IMG/VR virus record: IMGVR_UViG_3300031825_000024
Location: 1-42,913 of that record
Reading direction: 5' to 3' (one strand)
DNA from: a virus
Length of the DNA: 42,913 nt
The notes below the pieces were generated by a model, which was not told where the DNA came from, made no database searches, and saw only the letters and a list, made by a program, of their open reading frames with translations. The translations under genes and the position numbers were made by a program. Shown here one piece after another: positions 392-40,511 of this stretch; positions within the stretch are counted from its first letter, which is position 1; every line of letters starts with the position of its first letter.

Positions 392-1713
392 CCGCGACCC
401 CTCATGCAGCGCGCGGCCACGCCAAACTCAGCCCGAGCGCCTCCAAGCGCTGGCTCCGCTGCCCTGGTAGCATCAGGATGCAGCAAGGCATTCCCGACTC
501 CTCATCTCTCTTCGCCGATGAAGGCTCCGGCGCGCACGAGCTCGCGCAGAAGTGCATCGAGACGGGCCTCGACGCCGACACCTACGCCGGCTGGTACGCT
601 AACCTCGACCAGAGCAAGCCGATCGCGTCCAAGCAGTTCGGTGAGCGCTCGATCTACATCGACGACGAGATGGTCGACGGCGTGCAGCAATACGTCGACT
701 TCTGCCGCAAGCTGATGAACGGCGCCGAGTGGCAGGCCGAGCAGTGGCTGAGCCTGACGCATCTCGAATGCGACGGGCTCGACGGCGGAACCGGCGACTT
801 CCTGGCCTACAACGAGATGACGGCCACGCTCGACGTCGTCGACCTCAAATATGGCTATGGCGCCGTCGACCCGCGCGAGAATACGCAGCTCATGCTGTAC
901 GCGCTCGGAGCGGTAAAGCGATACCACAACCGCAAGCTCGACAAGGTCCGCTTGACGGTCGTCCAGCCGAGGTCGCGCAGCGGCGCCGAGGCCGTCAAGA
1001 CCTGGGAGGCCGATCCGCTCGACCTCTTCGAGTTCGAGACGGACATCAAGACCGGCGCTCGCAAGACGGAGGACGCGGCGGCGGCCTTCGACCGCATCTT
1101 CGAGGAAGTGCCGGTCGAGAAGCAGCCGAAAGCGGTGGCCGAATGGGAGAAGGCGCATCTCGCCGCCGGCCCTCACTGCACCTTCTGCAAGAGGGAGGGT
1201 AGTTGCGAAACCAACGCCGCGTACAAGCTCAGTCTGACCGACGCGGACTTCGACGCATTCGGCGAAGCGACACCAGCTCCAGTCATCCACATGACGCCGG
1301 AGCAGATCGGCAAGCGGCTCGCGACCGTAGACCAGGTCGAGCAGTGGTGTCGGGCTGTTCGGGCCTACGCCCATGACGAGGCGATGAACGGCCGTATGCC
1401 CGTCGGCTTCAAGCTCGTCGCCAAGCGCGCCACGCGGAAGTGGAGCGACACGTCGATGGCGGCGGACGCGCTCAAGAGCGTGCTCGGTGACAACGCCGCG
1501 ATCTGGTCGGAGCCGGAGCTGCTGAGCCCGGCGAAGGTCGAGAGCCTCATGCCGGGCAGCAACAAGGAGAAGCGCGCGGCGGCGCTTGCTGCGCTGGAGA
1601 TCGACGGCGTCAAGGTCGTCGTGAAGGAGTCGTCCGGCACGGTCCTCGCCGCAGAGAGCGACCCGCGTCCCGCAGCCATCATCGGCGGGGATGAATTTGA
1701 GGAGGTGAAATGA
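388..1713 (+). CDS. DUF2800 family protein, PD-(D/E)XK nuclease-like (Cas4/RecB type)
   Basis: 441 aa. The N-terminus ([18 protein letters not shown]) is the hallmark of DUF2800 proteins. The middle has a nuclease-like core: a GTGDFLAY segment, then [10 protein letters not shown], which together resemble the D...(D/E)xK site of PD-(D/E)XK enzymes. A cysteine cluster [10 protein letters not shown] follows near residue 265 and resembles the Fe-S cysteines of Cas4/AddB-like nucleases. In many phages and integrative elements DUF2800 sits with DUF2815 and a family A polymerase, exactly as here, so a role in replication or recombination end-processing is likely. The ATG overlaps the preceding stop (ATGA), which fixes the start. 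Activity is inferred from motifs only. Confidence 0.85.
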
Positions 1714-4637: not shown

Positions 4638-5269
4638 TCGCGGCCCTGTATGTTGAGAAAGACGGCGTGTATTTCGGCATCGAGGGGGTGGATCCGTGGG
4701 ACGAGGCACGGGACGCGCGGCTCTACGCCGGGCCGTGGCCTGTGGTCGCGCACCCGCCCTGCCAGCGGTGGGGTCGATTCTGGCACGGCAGCACGCGCAA
4801 GCCGCATCAGTACCAGCTTGGCGACGACGGCGGCTGTTTCGCCCACGCTCTGTCTGCCGTTCGCCGGTTTGGTGGTGTCCTTGAGCACCCCGCCGACAGC
4901 CGGGCGTGGGAGCACTATGGGCTCACGCCGCCCGAACGCTACCGAGGCTGGCAGCGAGCCGACATGCACAACGGATGGACCTGTTACGTCGAGCAGGGCC
5001 ACTACGGCCATGCTTCCAGGAAACCGACATGGCTTTATGCATCAGGTATTGAGAAGCCTGACCTGATCTGGACGCGCGGCGAGCAGCGTATCCCTCAGTG
5101 GATGCTTGACCGATACGGCTACGAAAAAGCCAGGCGCATCGGCGTCGTCGCCATGGTCGGCGGCAAGGACAAGACCCGCATCCGCAACAGCACCCCGGCA
5201 GAGTTCCGCGACATTCTCGTCAGCATGGCGCGTACCGCTACGTCGAGCGCCGAGGAGATGCCGGCATGA
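4634..5269 (+). CDS. Conserved phage protein with C5-methyltransferase-like PPC and E motifs
   Basis: 211 aa. VVAHPPCQRWGRFWHG resembles the catalytic PPCQ loop (motif IV) of cytosine-C5 methyltransferases, and GGVLEHPADSRAW resembles the glutamate motif VI region. The AdoMet-binding FxGxG motif is not seen and the protein is much shorter than a standard C5 methyltransferase. It belongs to a widespread phage family of unknown activity, perhaps a nucleotide- or base-modifying relative. It lies between GcrA-like and polymerase genes with 4-nt overlaps on both sides, so it is part of the replication operon. Confidence 0.6.
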   Translation: MIAALYVEKDGVYFGIEGVDPWDEARDARLYAGPWPVVAHPPCQRWGRFWHGSTRKPHQYQLGDDGGCFAHALSAVRRFGGVLEHPADSRAWEHYGLTPPERYRGWQRADMHNGWTCYVEQGHYGHASRKPTWLYASGIEKPDLIWTRGEQRIPQWMLDRYGYEKARRIGVVAMVGGKDKTRIRNSTPAEFRDILVSMARTATSSAEEMPA

Positions 5270-7368
5270 GCACGCTTCGCATCGACTTCGAGACAAAATC
5301 CGCCTGCGACCTCACGAAGACCAACGCCTATATTTATTTCGACTCCGAAACGACCGACATCTGGTGCGCGGCGTGGGCCTTCGACAACGAGGAGCCTGTC
5401 CTGTGGTGGCCGGGCGAACCATGTCCCGATCGCGTCCGCTGGCACATCGAAGCCGGCGGCCTTGTGAGCGCCTGGAACAGCGCATTCGAGAGACTTGCCA
5501 TCCGACAGGTGCTTGGTCCGAAATACGGTTGGCCGGTGCCGAAGCTCGAGCAGTATCGCTGCACCATGACGCAGGCTTACGCCATGGGCCTGCCAGGCAA
5601 GCTGGAGCAGGCCGCGCCGGCGCTCAAGCTGCCTATCACGAAGGATGACGTCGGCAAGCGCATCATGCTCCAGCTCTGCAAGCCTCGGAAGGCGCGCAAG
5701 GGCGAACGGCCGGACGGTCTCTACTGGCACGACGACCCGGAGAAGATCGCGCGACTCGGCGCCTACTGCATCGTCGACGTGAAGACCGAGCAAGCCATTG
5801 CCGCGATCCTGCCGCAGCTCAAGAAATCGGAACTCGAACTCTGGTTCCTGGACCAGCGGATGAATGATCGTGGGACGTTCATCGACGAGAACCTCTGCCT
5901 TCAAGCGCAGAAGGTCGTCGCGCAGACGCAAATTCGGCTCGACGCCGAAATGCGCCAGGTCACCGGGATGGCGGTGCGCGGCGTCAGCAATGTCGGCGAA
6001 CTCACCGCGTTCTGCCGCCAGCATGGCGTCGATGCGACGTCTGTGGCCAAGGACGATCTCGCCGAGCTGCTGATGCGCGACGATCTGAGCCCGGCCGTCC
6101 GCCGCGCCCTGGAGATCCGGCAGGAAGGCGCGAAGACCTCCGTCGCCAAGATCGGCAAGCTGCTGGCGTGCCGGCAGGCCGATGGCCGGATGCGCGGCAA
6201 CCTGCAGTTCCACGGCGCGGGCCCTGGCCGTTGGGCCGGTAGAAATGCGCAGCTACAGAACCTGCCCGTCCCAACTGTCGATGCGCCCATGGACGAGATC
6301 GTCAGGGATATCCTTGTCGGCGACTCGAACAGGCTGGAGCTACTCTATGGCCCTGCGCTCAGTGTGGTGGCGGATGCCGTTCGAGGCATGGTAGCGGCGC
6401 CGAAGAAGCGCAAGATCCTCGCGGGCGACTTCAGCCAGATCGAATCGCGAAAGACCGCCTGGCTTGGCGGCCAACATGACGTGCTAGAGGCGTTTCGCCG
6501 CGCCGACCGCAAGGAAGGTCCCGATATCTACATCGTTACTGCGGCCGGCATTTATCGCGTGCGGATTGATGAGATCACCAAGTCGGACCCGCGCCGCCAG
6601 GTCGGCAAGGTAGCCAACCTCTCGCTCGGATTCGGCGGCGGCGCCAACGCGCTGCTCAAGATGGCCAAGAAGTACCGGATGGACCTGCTCGACGCTCGCA
6701 CGGCTGTTCTCGCCAGTGCGTCGCCGCAGGCCGTAGAGGCAGCCGAGGCGGCATGGGAGGCCCGAGGCAAGGCCACGGGCGTTTCGCACGATCGCTGGAC
6801 AACGGCGGAGCTCATCAAGATCGCCTGGCGCAAAGCCAACCCGGCCACCGTCGCCATGTGGAAGACGGTCGAGGAAGCTGCGATCAAGGCCGTGAAGGAC
6901 CCCGGAATTATCGTCACGGCCGGACGGCTGCGCTACCGAAAGGCCGGCTCGTGGCTGCATTGTTGCCTGCCGAGCGGCCGGATCATGGCCTACGCCTTTC
7001 CGTCCGTCCGGCAAGAGCCAACGCCGTTTGTCGGCGCGGACGGGGAGACCATTTTCAAAGATAAGCTGCACTTTTGGGCGGTGGACGGAATAAGCAAGAA
7101 GTGGATCGAACATGGCGCCTATGGCGGGCTGCTCTTCCAGAATGCCGTTCAAGGTTCGGCGCGGGATGTCATGGCCGACGCCATGAAGCGCGTCGAAGCC
7201 GCCGGCTACGAGCCCACGATCACCATTCACGACGAGATCGTCGCCGAAGCCGATGAGGATTTTGGCAGCGTTGAGGAGTTTGGAGCGCTCATGACCGCGA
7301 AGGAAAGGTGGCTCGGCGATCTGCCGGTGGCGGCAGAGGCATGGGAGGGACCATGTTACAAAAAATGA
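5266..7368 (+). CDS. Family A DNA polymerase with 3'-5' exonuclease domain
   Basis: 700 aa, a normal length for phage enzymes of this type. Exonuclease: DFE at residues 7-9, SAWNSAFERLAI (Exo II), and YCIVDVKTE (Exo III). Polymerase: GPGRWAGRNAQLQNLPVP leads into the fingers, motif A is AGDFSQIESR with Asp388, motif B is GKVANLSLGFGGG with Lys448, and motif C is IHDEIVAE with Asp656. All catalytic carboxylates needed for proofreading and synthesis appear present. It replicates phage DNA together with the DUF2815 SSB and the prim-pol helicase encoded at 38-40 kb. It is the last large gene of the left operon. Confidence 0.95.
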   Translation: MSTLRIDFETKSACDLTKTNAYIYFDSETTDIWCAAWAFDNEEPVLWWPGEPCPDRVRWHIEAGGLVSAWNSAFERLAIRQVLGPKYGWPVPKLEQYRCTMTQAYAMGLPGKLEQAAPALKLPITKDDVGKRIMLQLCKPRKARKGERPDGLYWHDDPEKIARLGAYCIVDVKTEQAIAAILPQLKKSELELWFLDQRMNDRGTFIDENLCLQAQKVVAQTQIRLDAEMRQVTGMAVRGVSNVGELTAFCRQHGVDATSVAKDDLAELLMRDDLSPAVRRALEIRQEGAKTSVAKIGKLLACRQADGRMRGNLQFHGAGPGRWAGRNAQLQNLPVPTVDAPMDEIVRDILVGDSNRLELLYGPALSVVADAVRGMVAAPKKRKILAGDFSQIESRKTAWLGGQHDVLEAFRRADRKEGPDIYIVTAAGIYRVRIDEITKSDPRRQVGKVANLSLGFGGGANALLKMAKKYRMDLLDARTAVLASASPQAVEAAEAAWEARGKATGVSHDRWTTAELIKIAWRKANPATVAMWKTVEEAAIKAVKDPGIIVTAGRLRYRKAGSWLHCCLPSGRIMAYAFPSVRQEPTPFVGADGETIFKDKLHFWAVDGISKKWIEHGAYGGLLFQNAVQGSARDVMADAMKRVEAAGYEPTITIHDEIVAEADEDFGSVEEFGALMTAKERWLGDLPVAAEAWEGPCYKK

Positions 7369-7742: not shown

Positions 7743-7817
7743 TGGCGCCCGTACGGAGATTCGAACTCCGGTCTCCACCGTGAGAGGGTGGCGTCCTGAC
7801 CCCTAGACGATACGGGC
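7743..7817 (-). tRNA. tRNA-Glu (anticodon CUC)
   Basis: The minus strand gives a complete 75-nt cloverleaf including an encoded CCA. The acceptor stem is GCCCGTA / TACGGGC, the anticodon stem CCACC / GGTGG, and the 7-nt loop CTCTCAC has anticodon CUC at 7784-7782. The T arm carries GTTCGAATC. CUC reads GAG, a frequent codon in this GC-rich genome. It lies between the replication operon terminator and the integrase block. It may supplement host decoding, or mark the attachment region if integration uses a host tRNA-Glu. Confidence 0.92.
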
Positions 7818-8081: not shown

Positions 8082-8225
8082 TCACCCTTTCGGGCGGCCG
8101 AACAGCACCCACTTGATGACGTCGCGGTAGACCCACAGGATGAACGGGACGCCGAGGACGAAGAGCAGCGCCACGACCACGGGCGTGTCGCCGATCGCGC
8201 GGAACATCTCTGCGATGGTCATCAT
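8082..8225 (-). CDS. 47-residue single-span membrane protein in the integrase operon
   Basis: Its start follows the integrase stop by one nt, with GGAGG inside the integrase end at good spacing. The protein MMTIAEMFRAIGDTPVVV... has one strong hydrophobic segment (VVVALLFVLGVPFILWVY, about residues 16-33) and a basic tail (RDVIKWVLFGRPKG). Wobble positions are GC-rich, as expected for real coding. It is too short for a named family. It may act in lysogeny, for example superinfection exclusion, because it is co-transcribed with the repressor and integrase; that is inference. Confidence 0.65.
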   Translation of the reverse strand: MMTIAEMFRAIGDTPVVVALLFVLGVPFILWVYRDVIKWVLFGRPKG

Positions 8226-8226
8226 G

Positions 8227-9279
8227 TCATGCCTCCAGGAGGAACTCGACGCTGTGGTGGCCGTAGGTGCTCTCCACGGTCTTGACCGTGTCGCCGATCA
8301 GCCGCGCCACCTTGTAGATGCTGACGCCGGCCATGAGCATGTTCGACGCGCGGGAATGGCGCAAGACGTGCGGGTTCGAGTGCGGCATCTCCAGTCGCTC
8401 GCAGAGCGCGCGAAACGGCTTGTAGAAGTCGACGCTCTCGCCGAATAGGTAGCCCTTGCGCTCCGCCGCGGCTGCCACGCGATACCGCAAGAGTGCTGCG
8501 ATCTCGGGATATACTGGCACGATCGGCTTGCGCTTCTTCGTCTGGCGCTCGCCCTTCTTGAGCAGGTTGACGTGGGTCGCCTTCACCTGGTCGACGTGCA
8601 GCGTCTCGATGGATTCGCGCCGCGCCCCCCAGGTGTACGCGAACGCGATGAAGTCGCGGAGATCGCCTTCGGCCTCGAAGATGAGCGTGGCGATCTGATA
8701 CTCGCTCAGGAAGCCGACCTCCTGCTGGACGCGGGGCTCGGCCGGCGCCTCGAAGGTCGGCATGTGCTCGGCCTTGATGCGCTTCCAGCGTCGGGCGTGC
8801 TCGGAGGCCGCCTGCAGCACGTTGAGCTCGCGCCGGATGGTGCTGTCGGCGCCTTTGGCCCGCTCGCCCTTGTGGCGCGCTCCGCCGCCGATACGGCCCT
8901 CGCGGCGGGCTTCGGCGTAGGCCCGGCAGGCCGGGATGTCGACGGCGCGCAGCAGCCCGCCCGCGAAGAACGCCTTGAGATGGCGGATGGCATTCTCCTG
9001 ACGGACCGGATCGGCCACGTTCTCTGCGACGGTGACGTGCTCCTTGTAGTAGTCGTCGAGTGCGTTCGCGACCGAGATGTCTTCGCCCCGGCCTTCGACC
9101 ACGGCTAGGGCTTGCGGGTTCTTCCGCCAGACGGCGTAGCGATCAAGCGCCTCGTCATAGTCCTTTGTACGAAGGCCCAGGCGCCGAGTGCGCTTGGTCG
9201 TCGCGTCGTACCAGCAGATTTGATAGACGCCGGCGCGCTGCTGGAGGTAGTGGGGTTCTGCGCGCTTAGGCCGCGGCAT
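8227..9279 (-). CDS. int: Tyrosine recombinase integrase
   Basis: 350 aa. The N-terminal half is an arm/core-binding region (YQICWYDATTKRTRRLGLRT; SVANALDDYYKEHV). The catalytic half shows Arg in WGARRESIETL, a lysine-rich beta region, HVLRHSRASNMLMAG with the HxxR box, and the nucleophile in VESTYGHHSVEFL. The usual second His (LLGH) is replaced by Asp in LIGDTVKTVE, a variant seen in many alphaproteobacterial phage integrases. The start codon overlaps the recurrent motif (GGAGGCGACAATG on the minus strand) and overlaps the repressor gene's end by 14 nt, so the two are coupled. It implies a temperate life style. The attachment site is not identified. Confidence 0.93.
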   Translation of the reverse strand: MPRPKRAEPHYLQQRAGVYQICWYDATTKRTRRLGLRTKDYDEALDRYAVWRKNPQALAVVEGRGEDISVANALDDYYKEHVTVAENVADPVRQENAIRHLKAFFAGGLLRAVDIPACRAYAEARREGRIGGGARHKGERAKGADSTIRRELNVLQAASEHARRWKRIKAEHMPTFEAPAEPRVQQEVGFLSEYQIATLIFEAEGDLRDFIAFAYTWGARRESIETLHVDQVKATHVNLLKKGERQTKKRKPIVPVYPEIAALLRYRVAAAAERKGYLFGESVDFYKPFRALCERLEMPHSNPHVLRHSRASNMLMAGVSIYKVARLIGDTVKTVESTYGHHSVEFLLEA

Positions 9280-9685
9280 TGTCGCCTCCTGTAGCCTCCC
9301 GGATCATCGCCACGATCTTCACGGCCAGATCCCAGGGCACCATCATGTTGATGTTGAGCTGCGCCATCCCGTCCTCGAGGAGCGTCGCCCGGAGCGGATG
9401 GCTGGCGGAGTTGCGAACGACGCGAGAAGGGAGCAGGTCGGCCGGATCGACACCGAGCGCCTTGGAGATCGCCAGCAGATGCGGGCGACCGGGAAGCGAG
9501 AGTCCGCCGGCGTATTTGCTGATACGGTCTCGTGTGACGGGTTTTTCGGAGAACTGAGACGCCCGCCGGGCGAGCTCCGTCTGCGTCCAGCCCTTGTCGG
9601 CACGCAGGTTCTCCAGCTTGGTCGCGAATAGTGTCCGTTGCTGCTCGGCCGTCAATTGCGCCGAAGGGTTCTGCGGGTCTGACAT
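9266..9685 (-). CDS. XRE-family repressor, candidate lysogeny regulator
   Basis: 139 aa. Residues about 18-80 form a Cro/CI-type helix-turn-helix: LFATKLENLRADKGWTQTEL, then DRISKYAGGLSLP, then LLAISKALGVDPADLLP. The remaining ~55 residues have no peptidase-like motif, so it is not a LexA-type self-cleaving repressor. AGAGGA upstream selects the ATG at 9685 over an earlier in-frame start. It is transcribed with and overlaps the integrase, and its own 95-bp upstream region holds the densest cluster of the 13-bp motif, including a perfect palindrome. I infer that it binds that motif genome-wide. Confidence 0.85.
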   Translation of the reverse strand: MSDPQNPSAQLTAEQQRTLFATKLENLRADKGWTQTELARRASQFSEKPVTRDRISKYAGGLSLPGRPHLLAISKALGVDPADLLPSRVVRNSASHPLRATLLEDGMAQLNINMMVPWDLAVKIVAMIREATGGDNAAA

Positions 9686-9717
9686 GCTATCCTCTATCGC
9701 GCTATGGGGGTATCTGC

Positions 9718-9770
9718 TTGTCGCCTCTCTGCGCTCGCGCTCTTCGATTGTCAAGCGACAATTGTCGCCA
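9718..9770. promoter_or_regulatory. Repressor promoter/operator region with a perfect 14-bp palindrome
   Basis: It contains TTGTCGCCTCTCT (9718-9730) and GCGACAATTGTCGC (9755-9768), which is its own reverse complement, plus an overlapping inverted pair TTGTC-AAGC-GACAA (9748-9761). On the minus strand a consensus -35 TTGACA lies at 9754-9749, inside the operator cluster; the matching -10 (CAGAGA at 9731-9726) is poor. The arrangement suggests autoregulation of the repressor and integrase. Confidence 0.75.
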
Positions 9771-9780
9771 TGACGGACGG

Positions 9781-9987
9781 TCAGGGCGCCCATCCGCAGG
9801 CGCCCATGCCCTTGGCGTTGTGGGCGTCGACCTGCTTGCGAGTGCCGTCGGTGTCCTTCTTCGACCCGTAGATCGGGCTGAAGATCGTGCAGCCTTCGAC
9901 CTTAGTCGCGGTCGAACTGGCGCACGCGGCTGTCATCACCGCGATCAAGATGACGCAGCTCAGTGTTCGCACGCTCTTGAGCATCAA
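9781..9987 (-). CDS. Outer-membrane spanin (Rz1-like lipoprotein)
   Basis: 68 aa. The N-terminus is a lipoprotein signal (SCVILIAVMTAAC) with the modified cysteine at about position 22, followed by a short periplasmic part. The gene starts inside the i-spanin gene in another frame and runs past its end, the classic overlapping Rz/Rz1 arrangement. o-spanins join the i-spanin across the periplasm to fuse the membranes in the last step of Gram-negative lysis. Overlap and lipobox make the call firm although sequence is poorly conserved. Confidence 0.8.
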   Translation of the reverse strand: MMLKSVRTLSCVILIAVMTAACASSTATKVEGCTIFSPIYGSKKDTDGTRKQVDAHNAKGMGACGWAP

Positions 9988-10608: not shown

Positions 10609-10838
10609 GGTGTGGCCGGCCCGTATTCAGCGGCCATGTCCGCATGCAGTGCTTCGCGCTTAGCGTTCTCGGCCTCGATGCGCGGAGCCCAGCACATCCA
10701 GCACTGGAACGCGCGCTTCGGGCCGAGGAAATACTCCTCGCAGGACGAGCAACGACCCAGGTAGCGTGTGTCATCGGGCCAGTCGCGCGTGGGCCTCGGC
10801 GGAGACGGAGGCGGAGACGGAGGCGGGAACCGCTTCAT
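10605..10838 (-). CDS. Small protein with a proline-rich N-terminus and two CxxC motifs
   Basis: 77 aa from the ATG that overlaps the holin stop (TGATG). It starts with PPPSPPPSPPRP and then has CSSCEEYF and CWMCWAPRIEAEN, consistent with a small zinc ribbon. It lies within the lysis cassette between endolysin and holin and overlaps the endolysin start. No known lysis function is recognisable; a cytoplasmic zinc-binding accessory is possible. Confidence 0.6.
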   Translation of the reverse strand: MKRFPPPSPPPSPPRPTRDWPDDTRYLGRCSSCEEYFLGPKRAFQCWMCWAPRIEAENAKREALHADMAAEYGPATP

Positions 10839-11053
10839 CACTCACGCACCGACGGCTGGTTGATGATCCTGGCGAGCATCGCGATGATGACAGTGATGCC
10901 GCAGAGCACCGCGAAGACACCCCTGCTGACAGGCAGGACGCCGTCGAGCAGTGGCAGCGCGATCTCGAGGCCGGAGAAGACCACGGCGAGCAGCATGAAG
11001 CGCATCGACCACGCGCGCTTGACGATGCGCCGCCAGTTCCAGACGAGGGTCAT
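10838..11053 (-). CDS. Putative class II holin
   Basis: 71 aa. Two predicted membrane spans (MRFMLLAVVFSGLEIALPLL, then GVFAVLCGITVIIAMLARII) are separated by a short turn, with basic residues at the N-terminus and a polar C-terminus. This is the class II holin plan. The position directly upstream of a SAR endolysin and spanins in the same transcript is the main support. The ATG at 11053 overlaps the preceding gene's stop (ATGA), which favours it over a GTG nine nt upstream. Confidence 0.75.
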   Translation of the reverse strand: MTLVWNWRRIVKRAWSMRFMLLAVVFSGLEIALPLLDGVLPVSRGVFAVLCGITVIIAMLARIINQPSVRE

Positions 11054-11190
11054 TGGAGCCACCGACGCGCATCAAGAGCCGCGTACTTGTCGAACGCGAC
11101 CCACAGGCGGTCCCATTGCACCTCGAAGAGGGTGGCGGCCGGAGTTCCAGCGCGGAGGGCCTTCCGCCTGGTTTTGACGCGGAATGTCAT
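11050..11190 (-). CDS. 46-residue basic protein in the lysis cassette, unknown
   Basis: MTFRVKTRRKALRAGTPAAT... is rich in Arg and Lys at the N-terminus and ends WVAFDKYAALDARRWLQ. It overlaps both neighbours by 4 nt (ATGA), and codon use is GC3-rich like its neighbours, which together argue it is translated. No family recognised. It lacks a membrane segment. Confidence 0.6.
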   Translation of the reverse strand: MTFRVKTRRKALRAGTPAATLFEVQWDRLWVAFDKYAALDARRWLQ

Positions 11191-11351
11191 CGGGGCTCCT
11201 CGACGACGTATTTCACGCCCTTCCAAAGATCGCCCATGCCATCGTCATGACGCGCCGAGCAGCCGGCCAGCGCGAAGCCGGCGAATAAGATGATCGCCCA
11301 CAGGGGGATAGCGAGGACGACGCCGAACCCGAGGCCTCTGAAGAATTTCAT
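11187..11351 (-). CDS. Small lipoprotein with a perfect lipobox
   Basis: 54 aa: a basic start (MKFFRGLG), a hydrophobic core (FGVVLAIPLWAIILFAGFA) and LAGC, a textbook lipobox, with the modified Cys at about residue 31; about 24 polar residues follow. AGGGAGGATC precedes the ATG. It is the second lipoprotein of the lysis cassette besides the Rz1-like protein. It could be an extra outer-membrane factor or a lysogenic-conversion lipoprotein. Overlap with the next gene is ATGA. Confidence 0.68.
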   Translation of the reverse strand: MKFFRGLGFGVVLAIPLWAIILFAGFALAGCSARHDDGMGDLWKGVKYVVEEPR

Positions 11352-22237: not shown

Positions 22238-23284
22238 TCACGCGAACGCGTACACGCCGCAGCCATTACGGCGGCGAGCGATCATTCCACCGACCCAGGT
22301 GTAGGCCGAATAGAAGGTGTACTTGTCCTCGGGACGGGCGGGGGTGTGCTTCTTCTTGTCCTCGCCATCGACGACGAACGGATAGATTTCCGACTCGTCC
22401 AGGATGTAGAGGCGCTTGGCGTAGCCGAGATCGTCGAGGGTCGGATCGTAGTAGATCTGGATCCCGTCGAACTCGACGTCACCGACCGACAGGTCTTTCT
22501 TGCCGGTCGTGCCCGTCTGCGAATAATCGCTCTTGGCGCGGCGTTCGGCCTTGAACCGATCGATCATATCGGCGCCGGCGAAGCCGACGCTCGGCTTGCC
22601 GCCGTAGCGGCGGAGCTGCGGCAGCTCGACGTCCAGCGTGCGGAGAACCGCCTGCGAGGCGCCGGTCGTATCGCCGAGCGTGATCGCCAAGTTGGCCCGG
22701 TTGCGCCAGCGCGCGTTGGCCGCCTGGTCGATGCCGCCGACGACGGTGGCCGCAGTCGGATCATCGACTACCCAAGCGGTGACGCCCGGGAACTCGAGCG
22801 GACCCTGCGTGCCGTCCAGCCAGAACTTGCGGTTGAGGCCGTAGAGGAAGCCTTCCTCCTGGTCCCGCATCTTGCCGTCGAAGATGTTCCAGAGCGAGAT
22901 CGCGTCGCGCTTGGAAATGTCCGACTTGTTCTTGCCGGTGGTGGAATCGGTGACGTTGATGCCGTCATGCAGCAGCTCGTGCATCGTCACCTGGGTGCCG
23001 ATGTGGAACAGCCGATAAGGCGCCGACACGCGCCGGTTCTTGGCCGGCGAGGTGTAGCTGACGGAGTCGTCGTACTCGAAGGATTCGAGCTGCGACACGG
23101 TCTCCATGACGACAGCCATCTCGACACGGCCTTTGCCGCCTGGGATGGACTGCTGCTTCTTCATCAGCCGGGAGAGCAGCGGCTTGTCCTGGATGTGCTG
23201 ATCCAGGGGCGTGCCCTTCTTCATGTAGAAGTCCAGGACGGAATTCTGTACGTTCTGGACCTGTTCGGTGGTGAAAGTGGACAT
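22238..23284 (-). CDS. Major capsid protein
   Basis: 348 aa. N-terminal helix STFTTEQVQNVQNSVLDFYM, then GGKGRVEMAVVMETVSQLES (possible E-loop region), FHIGTQVTMHELLHDGINVT and a C-terminal ending with YTFYSAYTWVGGMIARRRNG. Overall length and pattern fit phage major capsid proteins, presumably HK97 fold. It follows a scaffold-type gene and precedes the capsid accessory gene, the standard order. It forms the icosahedral shell. Confidence 0.8.
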   Translation of the reverse strand: MSTFTTEQVQNVQNSVLDFYMKKGTPLDQHIQDKPLLSRLMKKQQSIPGGKGRVEMAVVMETVSQLESFEYDDSVSYTSPAKNRRVSAPYRLFHIGTQVTMHELLHDGINVTDSTTGKNKSDISKRDAISLWNIFDGKMRDQEEGFLYGLNRKFWLDGTQGPLEFPGVTAWVVDDPTAATVVGGIDQAANARWRNRANLAITLGDTTGASQAVLRTLDVELPQLRRYGGKPSVGFAGADMIDRFKAERRAKSDYSQTGTTGKKDLSVGDVEFDGIQIYYDPTLDDLGYAKRLYILDESEIYPFVVDGEDKKKHTPARPEDKYTFYSAYTWVGGMIARRRNGCGVYAFA

Positions 23285-24404: not shown

Positions 24405-26578
24405 GCGTTTCCTGCCGGGAAGGCCGGTTGCGGCCCTGCCTGCCTGCCGGGCTGCTGCGCGGCGTTCTGGCCGCCCTGCTGGCCCTGCGCGTTCGGGTCC
24501 GTCGCCGGGTCGCCGGTGCCTGCCTGGACGCCGCCCTTCGCCATCATCGAGTTGAGCGCGGTGATCGACGGGAGGCCCTCGACGAAGGCGTCTTCCGTGT
24601 CGATGTCGAGCAGTTCGAGATAGCGCTTGGCGAAGACGGCGGGATTCAGCCCCGGCATCTGGACGATGTACGGCATGCCGCGCTCGAGCTTTGCGAGCTC
24701 TGCCGCAGCATTCGGGCGGCCGCTGGAGCCGGCCTTGATTTCCAGCAGCAGATCCTGCGCGATCTCCTCGCGGCTGGTCTGCATGTCAGGCCAGACGGCG
24801 CCAGGCCCGACGATCTGCTGGACCGTCTCCTTCGACAGCTCGAGCATCATGAGCTGCCCGGTGCCGGCGGCGATGTCCGACAGCCATTCGTCCAGGTCGT
24901 CGACATTCTCGCTGAGCGAGACGGTGCGGCTCTGCTCGGCGATCGTGCTCTCCGTCGCGGTGCCGTCACTGGTTCCGCCAAGATTGGCCTCCTGCGCGCC
25001 GGAGACGCGTTGCATGTCCGAGAAGACCTGCTCGACCTCGTAGAGATTCGGGTCGATGTTGGCCTTCTCCAGCCGCTTGATGACGGCGGCCACATCCTCG
25101 CCCGCGCCCGTCTTGACCTCGATGACCTCGTGAGCTTTCGCACCCTGGAGTGCGGAGCGATCGGTCTTGTCGAGATGGCCTTTGCGAACGACGTAGTTCG
25201 GTGCCGCCGCGATGCAGTGCTCCCGCAGCGCCTCGCGCTTGCGGTTGTACTCGAACTGCAGATGGCGCATCAGCCAGACGTCGGAAGGCGGGTAGATGTC
25301 CTTCTCGTTCTCCGTCTCGTTGAAGACCAGGGGGTAGCCGGTGAAGAACCGTTCGATCTTGACGTCGGGTTCCGCCGGCTCCTTGAGGAAGTCGGGATAG
25401 CCCTCGCAGATCGTCAGGAACTGGCCGTTGCGCTTGTCCTGCACCTCGATGACGCGAGCCAGCCCCTTGCCGGTCTCATCGCCGGCGCTGCTCTTGGGCC
25501 GCTCGCCCTTCTCGTCGTCGCCGCGATCATCGCCCCTGAACTCGGTATAGCTGCCGCAGATGTCTACGCCATAGATGCTCTCGACCTCGTCGGGCGACAG
25601 CATGAACTCGTGAAACAGCGCTTGCGCGCCGAACAGCGTCTTTAGGTGCGTGCACTTCTCGTCGGGGTACATGTCCTTCGAGCGCGGCCAGTCGAAGACC
25701 GGCCCTTCGCGCACGATGATGGACTCCTTGCCTTGGAGCTGCTGGAGCAGCAGGCGCAGTTCCTCGACGCGCGCGCTGTCATCGCTGGTTTCGCCATCCT
25801 CGACCTCGCGGCCGAGCTGCTCCAGCCGCGCGATCTGCGTGGTTGTGTCGTCGATCTGCGCGCCGATCTCCGGCCGCGGCTCCAATTCGCGCTGGAAGAC
25901 CAGCTTGCACCAGGAGACCGAATTGACCTTCGTGCGCCGAATCGCCGCCTTGACCTGCTGCTTGAAGCCGCCGGACTGCTCGGTGGTGAAATAGTCCCAC
26001 AACAGCTCCTGCGTCTTGCCCATCCGGTCGATCATGTCGTTCTGCTCGCGAACGGCGGCGATCTCCTGGATCATCGCGACCGCGTTCGGATCGGGCTCCG
26101 GCGCCATCGGTGCGCCCGTCACCGGGTCCGTCGGACCGCCGGGCAACGGCATCCCGGTCATCGGATCCATGGGCGGCTGCGGATTCGCGGCCTCCATCGC
26201 CGCCTGGAGCGTATCCGAGCGGCCGTCCCAAAGCGTATACATCATGCGCTTCTTGCGCTTGGCGATGGCCTTTGGGTTCTTGGCATAGAGCTGTGCGACG
26301 GCCTGGTTGATATGCCGGACGATGATGGGGACGACATAATTGCCGGCCTTGACCCACTCTTCCGTCGCGCCCTCCGCGGCGAGCTGCTGACACTCGTCCA
26401 TGCGCTTGAACGCCGGCGCCCATTTCTTCCTGGCGCGCTTGGCACGCTTCAGCCACTCCGCGACGAGCGCGGCGCGAGCGGGATCGACCTCGGGCTTGGC
26501 GTCGTCCGAACGCTCTTTCGGCGCCATCGCGCCGTAAGCGGCGGGAGCCGGCTTCATGTCCAGGGTGTCGTCTACCAT
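24401..26578 (-). CDS. Portal protein
   Basis: 725 aa. Large portal of the podoviral type: N-terminal AKRARKKWAPAFKRMDECQQ, NYVVPIIVRHINQAVAQLYA, a clip/stem region (TKVNSVSWCKLVFQRELEPR; VWLMRHLQFEYNRKREALRE) and a C-terminal Gln/Gly-rich tail (AQGQQGGQNAAQQPGRQ). Its start overlaps the terminase end by 7 nt, the standard terL-portal order. It forms the dodecameric DNA entry channel and binds the terminase and the gp11-like adaptor. Confidence 0.85.
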   Translation of the reverse strand: MVDDTLDMKPAPAAYGAMAPKERSDDAKPEVDPARAALVAEWLKRAKRARKKWAPAFKRMDECQQLAAEGATEEWVKAGNYVVPIIVRHINQAVAQLYAKNPKAIAKRKKRMMYTLWDGRSDTLQAAMEAANPQPPMDPMTGMPLPGGPTDPVTGAPMAPEPDPNAVAMIQEIAAVREQNDMIDRMGKTQELLWDYFTTEQSGGFKQQVKAAIRRTKVNSVSWCKLVFQRELEPRPEIGAQIDDTTTQIARLEQLGREVEDGETSDDSARVEELRLLLQQLQGKESIIVREGPVFDWPRSKDMYPDEKCTHLKTLFGAQALFHEFMLSPDEVESIYGVDICGSYTEFRGDDRGDDEKGERPKSSAGDETGKGLARVIEVQDKRNGQFLTICEGYPDFLKEPAEPDVKIERFFTGYPLVFNETENEKDIYPPSDVWLMRHLQFEYNRKREALREHCIAAAPNYVVRKGHLDKTDRSALQGAKAHEVIEVKTGAGEDVAAVIKRLEKANIDPNLYEVEQVFSDMQRVSGAQEANLGGTSDGTATESTIAEQSRTVSLSENVDDLDEWLSDIAAGTGQLMMLELSKETVQQIVGPGAVWPDMQTSREEIAQDLLLEIKAGSSGRPNAAAELAKLERGMPYIVQMPGLNPAVFAKRYLELLDIDTEDAFVEGLPSITALNSMMAKGGVQAGTGDPATDPNAQGQQGGQNAAQQPGRQAGPQPAFPAGNA

Positions 26579-28212
26579 CCCGCCGCCCTCTTGGCTGTCA
26601 GCTTCCGGCGCTCGCTTTCGATCTTCGACTGGTTCAACAGCCAGCCGATCGAGCCTGTCGGCGCGTTATTTGTAGCAGATTTGTCGCCTGATTGCGACGG
26701 CTTGTATTGTTTCATCAGGCCCATGCCGATATGGGCGAGCCAGTCGACGAAGTCGTCATTCGCGCCGGCCGGGAACTTGAGCAGTTGGCTCTTGGCGTCC
26801 TCGAACCACGGTGCCGTGCGCGGGAAGCGCACCTTCTTCATCTGCATGCGGCCCTGGATCGAGCGCGCGCGCAGCGCCTTGTCCTTCGCCGGCGTGACCG
26901 CGTCGATCGGAACGTAGACGCGCTCCTCCTCCATCCGCTTTTGCAGGAACGGGCCGAACGACTTCGAGATAAGCTCCGACTCCATCCACCAGTAGGCGGG
27001 GTCGTTCGTCCGCATGTTGTGCAGGATTTCCTCGACCGTCCGGTCGGTCTGCATGCGGTCCCAAACGAGGTCCGGCAGGATCCAGATGTTGTCGTATCTG
27101 TCGACGCCGACGCAGCCGAGCACGGTGTAGTCTCGGCCCTGCTTGGTCGAAACGGCGTGGTCCGACGCCCCGTAGACCTCGAGCTCCGCACGCGGCGGCA
27201 GCTCCTCGATTTCATAGGGCACAATCCATTCACGGTGGAAGAAGTCGCCGTCGATCGCCGACGGGTTGCCCATGACCAGCGCCGAGAATGTGCGGGGCTC
27301 GGCCATCCGCCAGGGAACGTAGTGCGCGAGGCTCTTTTCCTCCTCCCACAGCGCCGTTACAGGCTTCGTGCCGAATGCGGCGACGATCTTCGGGTCCGTC
27401 TGGACCTTGAGCGTCAGACCGAGGCTCTTCGCCAAGGGCGCGTCGTAGATGACGCCGGGGATATTGAGGTACTGCCAGTCTTCCTTCAGGCCGGCGAAAC
27501 GCTTGTTGCGCTCCGGGTGATCCTCGTCGCAGAGTCGCCCGATCAGGTCGTCTTGCGACCATCTGGTGTGAATGATGACGATCGCGGTCCTGTTGCCACC
27601 GCGAGAATAGGCGACAGAGAAGAACCACGACCAGAGCTTCTCGCGGAATAGATCGCTCTGCGCGTCCTCATCGCCCTTCATCGGGTCGTCGATGAAGAAA
27701 TAATGCGCGCCGCGGCCGGTGATCGTGCCGCCGATGCCGACGAAGAAAATCTTGCCGCCGCGCGTCGTCGTCATCGACGTTTTCGACTGCGATCCGGTCT
27801 CGAGCACGGCTTGCGGGAAGCACTGCTGATACGCCGGCGAGTTCACGATCTTGCGGAACTCTTCGCCGAGTTCCGTCGCACGAGTCTCGTTGTACGTCGC
27901 GATGATGAGCTTCGCGCGCGGGTTGCGTCCGATGATCCACGCCAGGCCGTAGGTCGATAGATGCCAGGTTTTGCCGTGCTGTGGCGGAATTGCCACAGCA
28001 ACGCGCTTCATTTTACCTGACTCTACTTTCTCGACGATATCACAGAGAAGCCGCCCGTGTGCGGTGTCTTTGTACTCCGACAGGTCTGGATTATCTGGCT
28101 CGATCTCATCAGGAAGCAGGAGCTTCATAAAGCTGTAGAGGCTCTTCTGCGCGGCCTTCACCGCGATAAGCCGCTTGATGGTGTTGATTTGGGTATCGCT
28201 GACGGTGGTCAT
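26572..28212 (-). CDS. terL: Terminase large subunit
   Basis: 546 aa from the ATG at 28212, which overlaps the HNH gene stop (ATGA). ATPase: Walker A region VAIPPQHGKTWHLSTYGLAW, Walker B YFFIDDPMKGDED, and the coupling segment IHTRWSQDDLIGRL. The nuclease domain begins near YGASDHAVSTKQGRDYTVLG, with Asp residues expected to bind metal. It packages DNA into the prohead and cuts it. The small subunit is not adjacent; it lies 6.4 kb away at 34578-35075. Confidence 0.92.
   Translation of the reverse strand: MTTVSDTQINTIKRLIAVKAAQKSLYSFMKLLLPDEIEPDNPDLSEYKDTAHGRLLCDIVEKVESGKMKRVAVAIPPQHGKTWHLSTYGLAWIIGRNPRAKLIIATYNETRATELGEEFRKIVNSPAYQQCFPQAVLETGSQSKTSMTTTRGGKIFFVGIGGTITGRGAHYFFIDDPMKGDEDAQSDLFREKLWSWFFSVAYSRGGNRTAIVIIHTRWSQDDLIGRLCDEDHPERNKRFAGLKEDWQYLNIPGVIYDAPLAKSLGLTLKVQTDPKIVAAFGTKPVTALWEEEKSLAHYVPWRMAEPRTFSALVMGNPSAIDGDFFHREWIVPYEIEELPPRAELEVYGASDHAVSTKQGRDYTVLGCVGVDRYDNIWILPDLVWDRMQTDRTVEEILHNMRTNDPAYWWMESELISKSFGPFLQKRMEEERVYVPIDAVTPAKDKALRARSIQGRMQMKKVRFPRTAPWFEDAKSQLLKFPAGANDDFVDWLAHIGMGLMKQYKPSQSGDKSATNNAPTGSIGWLLNQSKIESERRKLTAKRAAGW
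26669..26697 (-). promoter_or_regulatory. Weak candidate promoter inside the terminase 3' end
   Basis: The motif copy TTGTCGCCTGATT (26681-26693 on the plus strand) lies in the spacer between a poor -35 (TCGCAA, 26697-26692) and -10 TACAAA (26674-26669) on the minus strand. It would drive the portal gene. The -35 is weak and the site is inside a coding region, so this is tentative. Confidence 0.3.
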
Positions 28213-28841
28213 GACCAAGCCATCTCCGCGAACTGCTCGGGAAATTTGTTCTGCTTGGAGATGTTTTCCGCTGCCGGCAGCACCTGGAGGTTCCATGGGA
28301 CGTGGCGCCCCGTGAAATTCTCACCCTTCAACGGGAAGATGTGGTCGACGTGGTGGAGGACGCCCTCCTTACTCCGTCGACGGGCTTCCTCATACAGAGC
28401 GCGGATCTCCGCCAGATGCGCTTCCGCTAGCCAATGTGGGGTCGCCCTTAGTTTGGTCGCCTTCCGAAGCATCTGGAGCGCCGTGAAGTGCGCGCGATGC
28501 TTGCGCTTATACGCCAGATGGCGCGCTCTTACGGCGTCGGCATTCTCTTCGAACCATCGCTGCGCGCCGGCCTTATTCTGCACCTCATTCCGCTCTTTCC
28601 ACGCCGCCGATGATGCGCGGACCTTTTCCCGGTTCGCGTTTTTGTAAGCGCGCATCCGCAGGATCTGCGCCTCCCGGTCGGCGTGATGCGCCTCAAGCGC
28701 TTTCTGGCGGCTGCACTCTGCGCATCCGTAGCTCGCCACCGAACGCCACGTGACGTGGCCTTTCGGGCACGCCTTGCCGGTGAAGTACCGCTTCTCGCCG
28801 AGGGCGAGCGCCTCTTCGCGGGTGAAGACCTCGCAGATCAT
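28209..28841 (-). CDS. HNH endonuclease
   Basis: 210 aa. N-terminal zinc-knuckle CPKGHVTWRSVASYGCAEC, a long basic helical middle, and a C-terminal HNH core: LHHVDHIFPLKGENFTGRHV, then WNLQVLPAAENISKQNKF, giving His-Asp-His, Asn and the second His/Asn of the fold. HNH proteins next to the large terminase are often required for terminase cutting and head morphogenesis. A free-standing homing nuclease is an alternative. It overlaps its neighbours by 4 nt on both sides, which favours a packaging role. Confidence 0.85.
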   Translation of the reverse strand: MICEVFTREEALALGEKRYFTGKACPKGHVTWRSVASYGCAECSRQKALEAHHADREAQILRMRAYKNANREKVRASSAAWKERNEVQNKAGAQRWFEENADAVRARHLAYKRKHRAHFTALQMLRKATKLRATPHWLAEAHLAEIRALYEEARRRSKEGVLHHVDHIFPLKGENFTGRHVPWNLQVLPAAENISKQNKFPEQFAEMAWS

Positions 28842-36827: not shown

Positions 36828-36855
36828 GGCCGCCGCAAGGTGGCCTTATCCTTTT
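36824..36855 (+). terminator. Rho-independent terminator, probably bidirectional
   Basis: An 11-bp stem (ATAAGGCCGCC / GGTGGCCTTAT, one G-U pair) with GCAA tetraloop, followed by CCTTTT. It lies exactly between the convergent plus-strand accessory operon and the minus-strand winged-helix gene. Confidence 0.8.
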
Positions 36856-37400
36856 CGCGCCGCCCGCAGAGCCCTCCGTCGCGCCGTAGCGGCCTGCAGG
36901 CGGGCAAAGCCGGCATCCTCCTTGGCCTCCCCCATGCGAGCCTGGATATCTCCGCACACGGCCTCCCCTGCCCTTGTGAGACGCCATAGGAACTTGGGCT
37001 GCGGTGTCACCAGCCCGTTCCCCTTCGGTATGGACGCGGAGTCCTCATTCTCGGCCCGCTCGACAAGCCCTTTCCTCGCGCAATGCGCCATGACCCACTG
37101 CGCCGTCTGTGTCGTCATATTGGCCCGCTTGCCGATGTCGCTATGGGCCAGCCACTCGCCACTCGCCAGCGCCAGCAACGCCCTGTCCCGATCGCTCTCG
37201 CCCCATCGGCCTTTCGGCTCTCCCCGAGCGCGCATCTCGGCCCGCTTCGCGATCGACCTGGCGATGACGGCTTTCTTCGCCCGGTTCGCCGGGTGCTTCT
37301 CTTTCATCGTCACCTTGCGCGCTTCCATCCGCGCCGCATGACGAGCCGCATCGGCCAGCAGGATCGCCCGCGTCACATCGTCGATCAGGTCATCGCTCAC
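36846..37400 (-). CDS. Winged-helix DNA-binding protein
   Basis: 184 aa. A basic N-terminal helical region (KEKHPANRAKKAVIARSIAK) precedes a winged helix: ALLALASGEWLAHSDIGKRA, NMTTQTAQWVMAHCARKGLV and a KFLWRLTRAGEAV wing. The C-terminus is basic (ARRRALRAARKG). The gene lies directly beside the CGGGTGAG repeat array and the prim-pol helicase, so it may be the initiator or regulator that binds that array. This is inference from position; the fold assignment is from motifs. Confidence 0.65.
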   Translation of the reverse strand: MSDDLIDDVTRAILLADAARHAARMEARKVTMKEKHPANRAKKAVIARSIAKRAEMRARGEPKGRWGESDRDRALLALASGEWLAHSDIGKRANMTTQTAQWVMAHCARKGLVERAENEDSASIPKGNGLVTPQPKFLWRLTRAGEAVCGDIQARMGEAKEDAGFARLQAATARRRALRAARKG

Positions 37401-37520
37401 GTCCGCGAACCTCGCCGCTCGGGATTAAAATAAATAGGGCATTTTGCCAGGGATTTCATCTCCGATCCTGTCGGCATTTTCGACACGCAACGTTTACTCG
37501 GGACCGGCGGGAGTGAGGTC

Positions 37521-37748
37521 TCCTCACCCGCCTAGGGTTACGTAGTAAGGGTAATCGGGTGAGACACGTAAAACGTTGAAATCATTGAATATAGTCTCAC
37601 CCGACACCACGGGTGAGACGAAAAGCCGGGTGAGGAAGGAGATGCGCCCCATAAAACTCTTATTCTTCAATAGCTTGGCTCATCTCACCCGACCCCGGAA
37701 ATCGGGTGAGAGCCGGGTGAGAGATCGGATTTTCGATCTCGGGTGAGA
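37521..37748. repeat. Iteron-like array, nine copies of CGGGTGAG(A/G), candidate origin
   Basis: Copies at 37521-37530(-), 37556-37565(+), 37594-37603(-), 37610-37619(+), 37627-37635(+), 37683-37691(-), 37703-37711(+), 37714-37722(+) and 37740-37748(+). Two pairs form perfect 10-bp inverted repeats: GTCTCACCCG/CGGGTGAGAC (spacer 6) and TCTCACCCGA/TCGGGTGAGA (spacer 9). An A/T-rich stretch (37568-37594) lies between copies 2 and 3 and another at 37424-37446. The array runs into the 3' end of the next minus-strand gene. Iterons plus A/T-rich DNA beside a helicase gene suggest a replication origin. Confidence 0.75.
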
Positions 37749-37986
37749 CGCGATTTCGGTACTCATCTATTTTCAGAAATTCATTGTGCGCATTTATCGG
37801 GTTTATTCCGTCGCGCACGACGAGGGTGTTGAAGTCGATGAAAACCTGCTCCGCCGGTGACACAACAAAAGCGCCGCCAACCGAATATCGGAGGTGCGAT
37901 GTCAGGCCATTGCGATCCGGCCACGGCACGACCATCACCTCCTTTGTGTCGACGCTCCAGGCGACCATCATATCTGCGTATCGCAT
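37660..37986 (-). CDS. Hypothetical protein upstream of the iteron array
   Basis: 108 aa from the ATG at 37986, with GGAGG seven nt upstream. MRYADMMVAWSVDTKEVMVV, then YSVGGAFVVSPAEQVFIDFN. The last ~30 residues are encoded by repeat-containing DNA (SHPALTRFPGSGEM). Predicted mixed alpha/beta, unknown family. It starts 12 nt after the prim-pol gene, so is likely co-transcribed with it. Confidence 0.6.
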   Translation of the reverse strand: MRYADMMVAWSVDTKEVMVVPWPDRNGLTSHLRYSVGGAFVVSPAEQVFIDFNTLVVRDGINPINAHNEFLKIDEYRNRVSPEIENPISHPALTRFPGSGEMSQAIEE

Positions 37987-37997
37987 TGCTGCCTCCT

Positions 37998-40097
37998 TCA
38001 GGTCAGTTCGTTGCGCTTGATATGGAACACGATGCCCCCCGGACTTGGCTTCTTCCAGACGCCCAGCTTGCCGTGAGGCGTGTCGGTTCCGCGCTCCCTG
38101 CGCTCGGAGATCTGGACGCCCTTGGCTTTGAGCGCGCGCTCGACCGTCCGCGACCAATGGGGCTTGGCGCCGAGCGCACCGAGTTGGAAGGCATCCATGC
38201 TCTCCGTTATCTGCGCCAACGGATACCACTCCCCCTCCTCGAAATGAGGGTTCTCGTCGAGCGTCTGCGCGATCAGATTGATGATGTCCAACTCCCCGTC
38301 CTCTCCTGTTTTCTGAAGGGTGGCCGGCAGCAGCACGCCCAGGCTCTCTCCCGCCTCCGGCGGGCCAAGGTGCACGCTCTCGCGCCGGAACCACCGCGGC
38401 TCGCCATTGTCGATGAAGATGTTCCCCTTGGCCCTGTCGAGCCGCGCATACAGGTGCCGCTGGTTGTCGGGCACGCCATAGAGCTTGGCGTTCTTGGCCG
38501 TCATGGTGAAGAGGGTATACGCCAGCCGGACCACTGGCCCTTGGGCGGACGCACCACGCAGCGAGTCCATCGAGCCGATGAACGACTCAGCGTCGGCGTC
38601 CGGCGGCTTCTTGGTGTGCGCGGAGACGAAGACGGCGCAGCGCGTCTCGACGGCGATGCGCCTGAAGATGCGCCAGGTCGCCGCCATCTCGGCGTTGTTG
38701 TTCTCCTCGCCCTCGTGGAACTCGATGAAGGGATCCGCGATGAAGACGTCGATCCGGTTGCGCTTGATCTGCTCGATGATCTTCGGGACGTTGGCCGTGG
38801 TCGCGAGTGTGCCGTCGGGCTTGCGCCTGGCCATGAGCAGCGGGCGCTCGACGCCCGAGTCGTAGAAGAAGCCAGGCTCGCCGTCGAGCAGGGTGTCGGA
38901 TGTCCTGATGCCGAAATGCTCTCTGACGGCGCCGATGCGCCTGCGCAGCTCGTCGTGGTCGTCCTCCTGGTTCCAGTACCAGACCTTCGCGCGCTTGGGC
39001 ACGTCGAAGCCGAGGATGTCGGATCGGCCGGCGGATAGCGCGAGGCCTATGCTCGCCGCGAGCTGCGTCTTGCCGGTACCGCCAGGGCTGATGAGCGCGG
39101 TGACGAAGGTGCGTGCGAGCAAGGCAGGCACGATCCATTCTCGTGGCGGGATGGCGTGGGGGTCGAAGTCCTCCAGCGGCGTCGGCTTTGGCCATTCGTC
39201 GTTTTGAGTTGGATCCGCTTCGGAACCAGTTGCCAGCTCGACATGGTCGAACTCGACATCTGCGCTGCTCGACCCGATCGGGCTGTGTCGGTAGGCCGCG
39301 GCGTTATTCACGATGACCTCGAGGCGCTCCGCGCTCCACGGCGGTTCGCATCTCTCGTTCCAGTCGGCCAGCATGACGTCGAGCGCGTCCGATGGCGAAA
39401 GCCCGAAGTCCATGACCCTGGCCGCGACGCGATAAGCCGTGTCGTCACCGCCATTGCCCTCCATCGAGAGCTCGGCATGGTTTTTCAGCCACGTCGCCGC
39501 TCGTGCGGCCGCGAGTTCCTCGTCGACGCCTTCGAGCGCCGCAGTCGATTCGGCTTTGACCGGCCTTGGCCCCGATACCATCGGCAGGAGCCAGCCGGGC
39601 GCCTCCGGCGCGTCACCGGCCGCGCTCACCTCATACCGCTTCCCGTCGATGATGGATCCGGGGCCGACGACGTAGCCGCCATCGCCGCGCACGTCGATAC
39701 CGTTGCCGAGGGTGGACGCGCTGTTGCGGATGTACGACCCAGCCGCGCATGTCAGATAGATATGATTGCCGCCGCTCGGCGTACTGATGGTTAACGCTGG
39801 CGGCAGATCGCTGTTGCGAAGTTCGAGCGATTCTAAAGAGAGTGAGCCGTTCTTGCCATTCTTGTTGTCGATATCGAGGACAAGCAGGCCATCGCCGGTC
39901 GCGATGCCGATATTGTAGTCCAGCGGTTCGCCGCTGAAAGCCTCGGACCAGAAGCGGTGCACCCGCTCGGGATCGGACGAGGCCCTGGTAACTCCCCCTT
40001 CGACTGCAGGGGTCTTGCCATTTGGCAGCAACGGAAAAACCCGACGGCCTTGCCTTGCCAGGGCGACCGCCTGGCTGCGGAGAGAATCGTCTGCCAT
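37998..40097 (-). CDS. Bifunctional prim-pol / AAA+ (RepA-like) helicase
   Basis: 699 aa from the ATG at 40097 with AAGGAGA upstream. Prim-pol domain, residues ~1-190: NIGIATGDGLLVLDIDNKNG with the catalytic acidic pair, TPSGGNHIYL and DVRGDGGYVVGPGS. Helicase domain: Walker A SPGGTGKTQLAAS near residue 335, Walker B RIDVFIADPFIEF, and a sensor-like VFVSAHTKK. A short winged-helix-like C-terminus follows. It should prime and unwind phage DNA for the family A polymerase encoded at 5-7 kb. It is encoded beside the candidate origin. Confidence 0.88.
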   Translation of the reverse strand: MADDSLRSQAVALARQGRRVFPLLPNGKTPAVEGGVTRASSDPERVHRFWSEAFSGEPLDYNIGIATGDGLLVLDIDNKNGKNGSLSLESLELRNSDLPPALTISTPSGGNHIYLTCAAGSYIRNSASTLGNGIDVRGDGGYVVGPGSIIDGKRYEVSAAGDAPEAPGWLLPMVSGPRPVKAESTAALEGVDEELAAARAATWLKNHAELSMEGNGGDDTAYRVAARVMDFGLSPSDALDVMLADWNERCEPPWSAERLEVIVNNAAAYRHSPIGSSSADVEFDHVELATGSEADPTQNDEWPKPTPLEDFDPHAIPPREWIVPALLARTFVTALISPGGTGKTQLAASIGLALSAGRSDILGFDVPKRAKVWYWNQEDDHDELRRRIGAVREHFGIRTSDTLLDGEPGFFYDSGVERPLLMARRKPDGTLATTANVPKIIEQIKRNRIDVFIADPFIEFHEGEENNNAEMAATWRIFRRIAVETRCAVFVSAHTKKPPDADAESFIGSMDSLRGASAQGPVVRLAYTLFTMTAKNAKLYGVPDNQRHLYARLDRAKGNIFIDNGEPRWFRRESVHLGPPEAGESLGVLLPATLQKTGEDGELDIINLIAQTLDENPHFEEGEWYPLAQITESMDAFQLGALGAKPHWSRTVERALKAKGVQISERRERGTDTPHGKLGVWKKPSPGGIVFHIKRNELT

Positions 40098-40477: not shown

Positions 40478-40511
40478 CGAACACGACGACACGAGACGAG
40501 GAGGCGACAGG

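Follow-up and report, generated by a model that had tools for sequence, protein, structure and literature searches.

A short-repeat array downstream of a Prim-Pol/RepA-type helicase gene as the probable replication origin of a temperate phage

In SaPI Rep and SCCmec Cch2 it is the C-terminal domain that recognises the iterons, which lie downstream of the protein's own gene (PMC7581432), and the rep-ori of EcCICFT073 replicates a plasmid, loss of the ori lowering replication (PMC6092414). In pRN1, whose ORF904 protein joins Prim-Pol to a helicase and carries a winged helix at its C-terminus, the origin also lies 3' of the gene, as a 100-nt stem-loop and explicitly not as iterons; in phage P4 the C-terminal domain of the alpha primase-helicase binds short origin repeats (ori-crr), and the RSF1010 replicon involves three polypeptides (all PMC4234260). 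For the primase group concerned here, a published survey merely speculated that C-terminal winged-helix domains recognise the origin (PMC5862659). A search of the open literature found no paper placing iterons beside RepA-type genes.

The window, that is the whole 42,913-base IMG/VR virus record analysed here, comes from a temperate tailed phage of 64% GC, the features of which are listed in Table 1. A unit of 27 bp (CGCGGCGTCGGCGACGGGCAGCCAAGG), repeated 7.7 times in tandem, occupies positions 1–207 at the left contig end, and a tRNA-Glu (CTC) gene at 7743–7817, about 400 bp from the integrase gene, is possibly the attachment site or a phage-borne tRNA. Exact word search locates CGGGTGAGR at nine sites within 227 bp, six on the plus and three on the minus strand, and at a sole further position, 20181, far from this array; the extended core of the word is TCGGGTGAGAC. 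By chance 0.99 copies are expected in the whole window, and ten were reached in 0 of 100 shuffles. Markov resampling of the 600-bp array region (5000 resamples) gave at most 4 copies of an 8-mer versus the 9 observed, and the array is the top-scoring word cluster of the window, an equally strong 7-mer cluster occurring in 0 of 409 control windows. The preliminary description of this DNA had reported nine copies in both orientations, two perfect 10-bp inverted pairs and A/T-rich DNA nearby, all of which are confirmed: the pairs are located at 37594–37603/37610–37619 (gap 6) and 37683–37692/37702–37711 (gap 9), and four of the approximately 20 most A/T-rich 50-bp segments of the phage lie in the array or at its edges. 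The copies are irregularly spaced, successive starts being 33, 40, 14, 17, 57, 19, 11 and 26 apart; facing 9-bp copies are separated by gaps of 6, 11 and 25, and the remaining copies are direct. The detrended cumulative GC skew reaches its minimum at 38452, near the array, in line with an origin there though confounded by gene direction.

Table 1. Features of the phage and of its array region (window coordinates)
Feature	Coordinates	Strand	Basis
DUF2800 exonuclease	388–1713		
PolA	5266–7368		
Integrase	8227–9279		
CI-like repressor	9266–9793		
Major head protein	22238–23284		
Terminase	26572–28296		
MarR-like winged-helix protein, 184 aa; probably not the iteron binder	36846–37400	-	structure model
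A/T-rich segment, 40% GC, wHTH side of array	37422–37471		
Block conserved with L014, CCGACAGGATCGRARATGAAATCCCTGGCAAAATNNCCTATTTATTTTAAT, about 47/51 identical	37424–37475	-	DNA alignment
Iteron 1, CGGGTGAGG	37522–37530	-	exact word search
A/T-rich segment, 36% GC, within array; candidate unwinding element	37543–37592		among lowest-GC 50-mers of window
Iteron 2, CGGGTGAGA	37556–37564	+	exact word search
Iteron 3, CGGGTGAGA; perfect inverted pair with iteron 4	37595–37603	-	
Iteron 4, CGGGTGAGA; pairs with iteron 3	37610–37618	+	
Iteron 5, CGGGTGAGG	37627–37635	+	exact word search
A/T-rich segment, 42% GC, within array	37636–37685		
108-aa ORF between helicase and array; four iterons in its 3' end	37660–37986	-	
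Iteron 6, CGGGTGAGA; perfect inverted pair with iteron 7; in coding 3' end of 108-aa ORF	37683–37691	-	
Iteron 7, CGGGTGAGA; pairs with iteron 6	37703–37711	+	
Iteron 8, CGGGTGAGA; 11 bp (one helical turn) past iteron 7	37714–37722	+	
Iteron 9, CGGGTGAGA	37740–37748	+	exact word search
A/T-rich segment, 34% GC, helicase side of array; second lowest in window	37758–37807		
Fusion C-terminal ~120 aa, proposed iteron-binding domain	37998–38360	-	covariation in relatives
Prim-Pol/RepA-type helicase/C-terminal domain fusion, 699 aa, proposed initiator	37998–40097	-	PF09250, PF13481, 1g8y

The array lies 250–475 nt past the stop codon of the gene encoding a Prim-Pol/RepA-type helicase fusion, with a small ORF in between, whereas the arrays of most relatives begin 0–100 nt past the helicase stop. 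This ORF, which matches no family and has a good ribosome site (AAGGAGG), carries four of the nine sites inside its 3' coding end, as had been noticed before. Within the fusion, the Prim-Pol domain corresponds to PF09250 and the RecA-fold helicase to PF13481; the motor, of the hexameric RepA type, matches RSF1010 RepA (1g8y) by sequence with E=1.7e-16, and the same protein is the top Foldseek hit. A start at 40484 was rejected in favor of the ATG at 40097, because the relative L014, a 50-kb IMG/VR phage, starts at the equivalent MAD. No family match was found for the C-terminal region, and the predicted structure of the helicase half is unreliable at its poor C-terminus (pLDDT below 40).

The likeness of this locus to the rep-ori of SaPI and PICI elements concerns the location of the origin, a putative one here, just past the 3' end of the gene for the initiator helicase, the combination of short iterons with A/T-rich DNA, and the variation of the word between elements. 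In those elements two iteron sets flank an A/T-rich segment; the window iterons do not form two clean sets but are interleaved with several such segments. The window element is a full-sized temperate phage, part of its array is in coding DNA, and its helicase is a RecA-fold RepA-type motor fused to Prim-Pol instead of a D5/DUF927 AAA+ Rep. SaPI/PICI origins work alike with other helicase classes, and the RepA-type motor is what differs here; C-terminal iteron binding of the SaPI/PICI kind is suggested by the covariation described below. pRN1 likewise has a Prim-Pol/helicase fusion and an origin 3' of the gene, but with an SF3 helicase and a large stem-loop where the window has a RepA-type motor and repeats. 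RSF1010 (IncQ) has the homologous RepA motor and an AEP-type primase; however, RepA, RepB' and RepC are three separate proteins, and its iteron-binding RepC acts on long direct iterons, in contrast to window words of 9–10 bp in both orientations. No RepC homologue was recognised in the window, the neighbouring protein being MarR-like. P4 alpha, compared at the level of classes, contains a TOPRIM primase and another class of helicase, and the window differs in that its repeats adjoin the gene.

Genes for RepA-type (Prim-Pol) helicases have, as a general feature, short-repeat arrays at their 3' end, an arrangement seen in many unrelated phages and genomic islands. A profile of Prim-Pol/RepA-type proteins was searched in 398 Pseudomonadota genomes, and the surrounding DNA was taken without selection. 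In each locus, the best repeated 7-mer between -200 and +500 relative to the helicase stop codon was then placed in a ranking with every other 700-bp window. The helicase 3' flank came first in 20 of 37 loci and within the best 5% in 25 of them; the test reveals no array in about half of the loci surveyed, and the loci are not fully independent (L082 and L083, for example, are copies). An 8-mer version was weaker (top in 14/37), and the 7-mer version was then fixed for a second set of loci, in which, with parameters set beforehand, the flank was top in 10 of 19. Among named phages and plasmids it was top in 8 of 14. As a control, other long ORFs of the same loci were ranked in the same way and came top in 2 of 211 cases versus 25 of 48 for the helicase flank (Fisher p=2e-19). 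Repeating the genome search at class level yielded no genomes beyond the 48 already obtained. The array words vary from locus to locus; Rhizobium phage 16-3 contains 15 copies of CGTGACA within 360 nt past gene p101, and the array of RHph_X2_25 comprises 16 copies. Prim-Pol is not required for an array, since stand-alone RepA-type helicases of about 400 aa carry arrays too. The L011 array was left out of the count, its repeat being inside a predicted ORF that we read as pentapeptide-like. Past its helicase, L019 has a duplicated array (8139–8475), in which two similar TTCCCGAAATTCCCG repeat units are separated by about 280 bp.

Comparing the window with L014 (a second L014-type contig is a copy), the Prim-Pol parts are 74% and the 184-aa winged-helix (wHTH) proteins 66% identical, whereas the helicase/C-terminal half of L014 is of a different lineage, unrelated to that of the window. 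At the same place, between its prim-pol and wHTH genes, L014 carries an array that extends into the prim-pol 3' end and is built from another word, CGATTGGTC. This comparison indicates that the word changed jointly with the helicase half while the wHTH gene was kept, and for this phage the swap argument is a single comparison, because the wHTH gene is common to one relative only. No relatives of the window's helicase half were confirmed in IMG/VR. A parallel exchange is seen in E. coli CFT073, in an island that, by its genes and location, we take for EcCICFT073. The slot used by the RepA-type helicase in other E. coli islands (integrase ... DUF4222 - Rep - gap - SSB) is here occupied by a D5-type Rep, which is followed by repeats of its own, GGTAGACA; the first ~120 Rep residues are 62% identical to those of the island L156, and the remainder has been exchanged together with the array. 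Elsewhere in IMG/VR, the CGGGTGAGR word was met only in L016, as three copies that we regard as unrelated since they stand in an unrelated phage contig with no such helicase nearby.

Analysis of 29 array loci reveals that word similarity tracks C-terminal similarity (Mantel r=0.18, p=0.002), a modest effect that persists once the motor domain is controlled for (p=0.008), whereas the motor domain alone does not predict the word (p=0.15). Two instances in which all sites shift together are stronger evidence. In the trio L070, L074 and L084, the word is CGTGACA in one locus and CGGGACA in the others at 9 or so equivalent positions, the DNA between the sites being largely unchanged, and this change accompanies a Q to K replacement in the putative recognition helix. 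All sites of the trio are in coding sequence and the copies have changed in unison even though this alters amino acids, which lends support, from homologous systems, to the earlier proposal that selection on the DNA overrides coding. Among E. coli islands, Asn in the helix is associated with GTGAG arrays (L156, L165, L168) and His with GTGGG arrays (L163, L164, L166, L167, L169, L170, L172), a switch involving 6–9 sites each with a nearly identical RepA-type motor; judged by distinct C-termini, these cases represent few lineages. The one exception to the rule, L171 (E. coli cq9), has His with GTGAG. Its RepA-type helicase gene is truncated, its GTGAGGA array is intact, and an intact D5-type primase gene adjoins them in the island, which apparently represents a rep-ori cassette in the midst of replacement. 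The segment bearing the Q/K and N/H changes is a putative recognition helix, assigned from sequence rather than from a structure. Because the words change in concert with its residues, the helicase C-terminal domain, rather than the MarR-like 184-aa protein, is the likely iteron binder. The phage L010 encodes a stand-alone 178-aa protein (10793–11329, minus strand) that by eye resembles the C-terminal domain of its own prim-pol/RepA-type helicase and possibly is a detached origin-binding domain acting as a regulator.

The 184-aa protein, which models as a MarR-like winged helix and has no close relatives in the phages, plasmids and genomes searched, deserves consideration as the binder, given that iteron binding in RSF1010 falls to a separate protein, RepC, with which RepA works. 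The array would then still be an origin, at which this protein would act as a RepC-like separate initiator recruiting the RepA-type helicase. Its gene is directly downstream of the array in both the window and L014, the two proteins differ in their recognition helix (T99R), and in L024 an HTH-like gene, unrelated to this one, follows the array. We nevertheless judge such an arrangement unlikely: homologues among the surveyed loci are confined to the window and L014, the gene is missing from nearly all other array-bearing loci, the protein has stayed 66% identical in two phages with unrelated words, and the covariation between residues and words sits in the helicase C-terminus. It is less probable still that the array is no origin but a dense operator where the MarR-like protein keeps its own operon repressed. 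MarR proteins often autoregulate, and the array is just upstream of the 184-aa start codon; but the MarR fold normally binds a palindrome of fixed spacing, the array does not present palindromic sites of fixed half-site spacing, similar arrays accompany helicases that lack the 184-aa gene, and a promoter scan, a weak test, found no sigma-70-like promoter. Of the two functions offered in the preliminary description, origin or operator of the winged-helix protein, the survey comparison strongly supports the former; the latter is disfavored by the absence of the gene from nearly all other array-bearing loci, by the conservation of the protein despite the change of word and by the missing palindrome.

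The preference for an origin of iterons has also to be set against a pRN1-type one, in which a large stem-loop would lie 3' of the replication gene and the repeats would be by-products of the hairpin. The pRN1 origin is indeed 3' of the prim-pol gene (PMC4234260), and the array single strand folds better than shuffled sequences (z=-4.5). However, this fold consists of many alternative short pairings of inverted copies and not of one hairpin, a hairpin needs neither direct copies nor irregular spacing, and in related arrays most copies often point the same way (L085 and L075, for example), so that we give this possibility very little weight. Scans for a stem-loop origin and for promoters were unconvincing. 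Between the array and the wHTH gene, a block of about 50 bp is nearly identical in the window and L014 and was met, outside the window, only in the two L014-type contigs; it may be an origin element, a promoter element or the start of a 20-codon leader ORF, MKSLAKCPIYFNPERRGSRT, at 37397–37459 on the minus strand. The TGA of this ORF overlaps the wHTH GTG start, and its first 12 codons and upstream DNA are almost unchanged in L014 (MKSLAKSPIYFN), as would suit either a leader peptide or a conserved DNA element.

Most probably, the array is the theta-type origin of the phage and the C-terminal domain of the fusion is the iteron-binding part of its initiator. The steps of binding, melting, loading and priming that we infer for this phage are as follows. 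The nine words of 9–10 bp would serve as iterons and the adjacent Prim-Pol/RepA-type fusion as initiator, its C-terminal domain binding the words singly and in either orientation and so concentrating helicase subunits at the array. The nearby A/T-rich DNA would open and hexamers would assemble on the strands; the fused Prim-Pol domain would provide primers, to be extended by the phage PolA or a host polymerase. Helicase, C-terminal domain and array would move as one exchangeable rep-ori cassette, and a new specificity would arise by a change in the C-terminal domain followed by concerted change of all copies.

On the broader scale, it appears reasonably likely that phages and islands harbor a large class of self-origin initiators that has mostly escaped recognition, namely their RepA-type helicases, whether fused to Prim-Pol or not, each with its own iterons at the 3' end of the gene; that the C-terminal recognition helix and all iteron copies co-evolve by a readable code; and that the origins of thousands of these elements are predictable from sequence and exchanged as rep-ori cassettes. 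Replication proteins of the Prim-Pol/RepA type occur widely in phages and mobile elements. If the proposal is true, the rule would locate origins in many phages, phage-plasmids and E. coli islands, would account for the swapping of replication modules as cassettes, and would provide natural protein/site pairs for reading the evolution of initiator DNA specificity.
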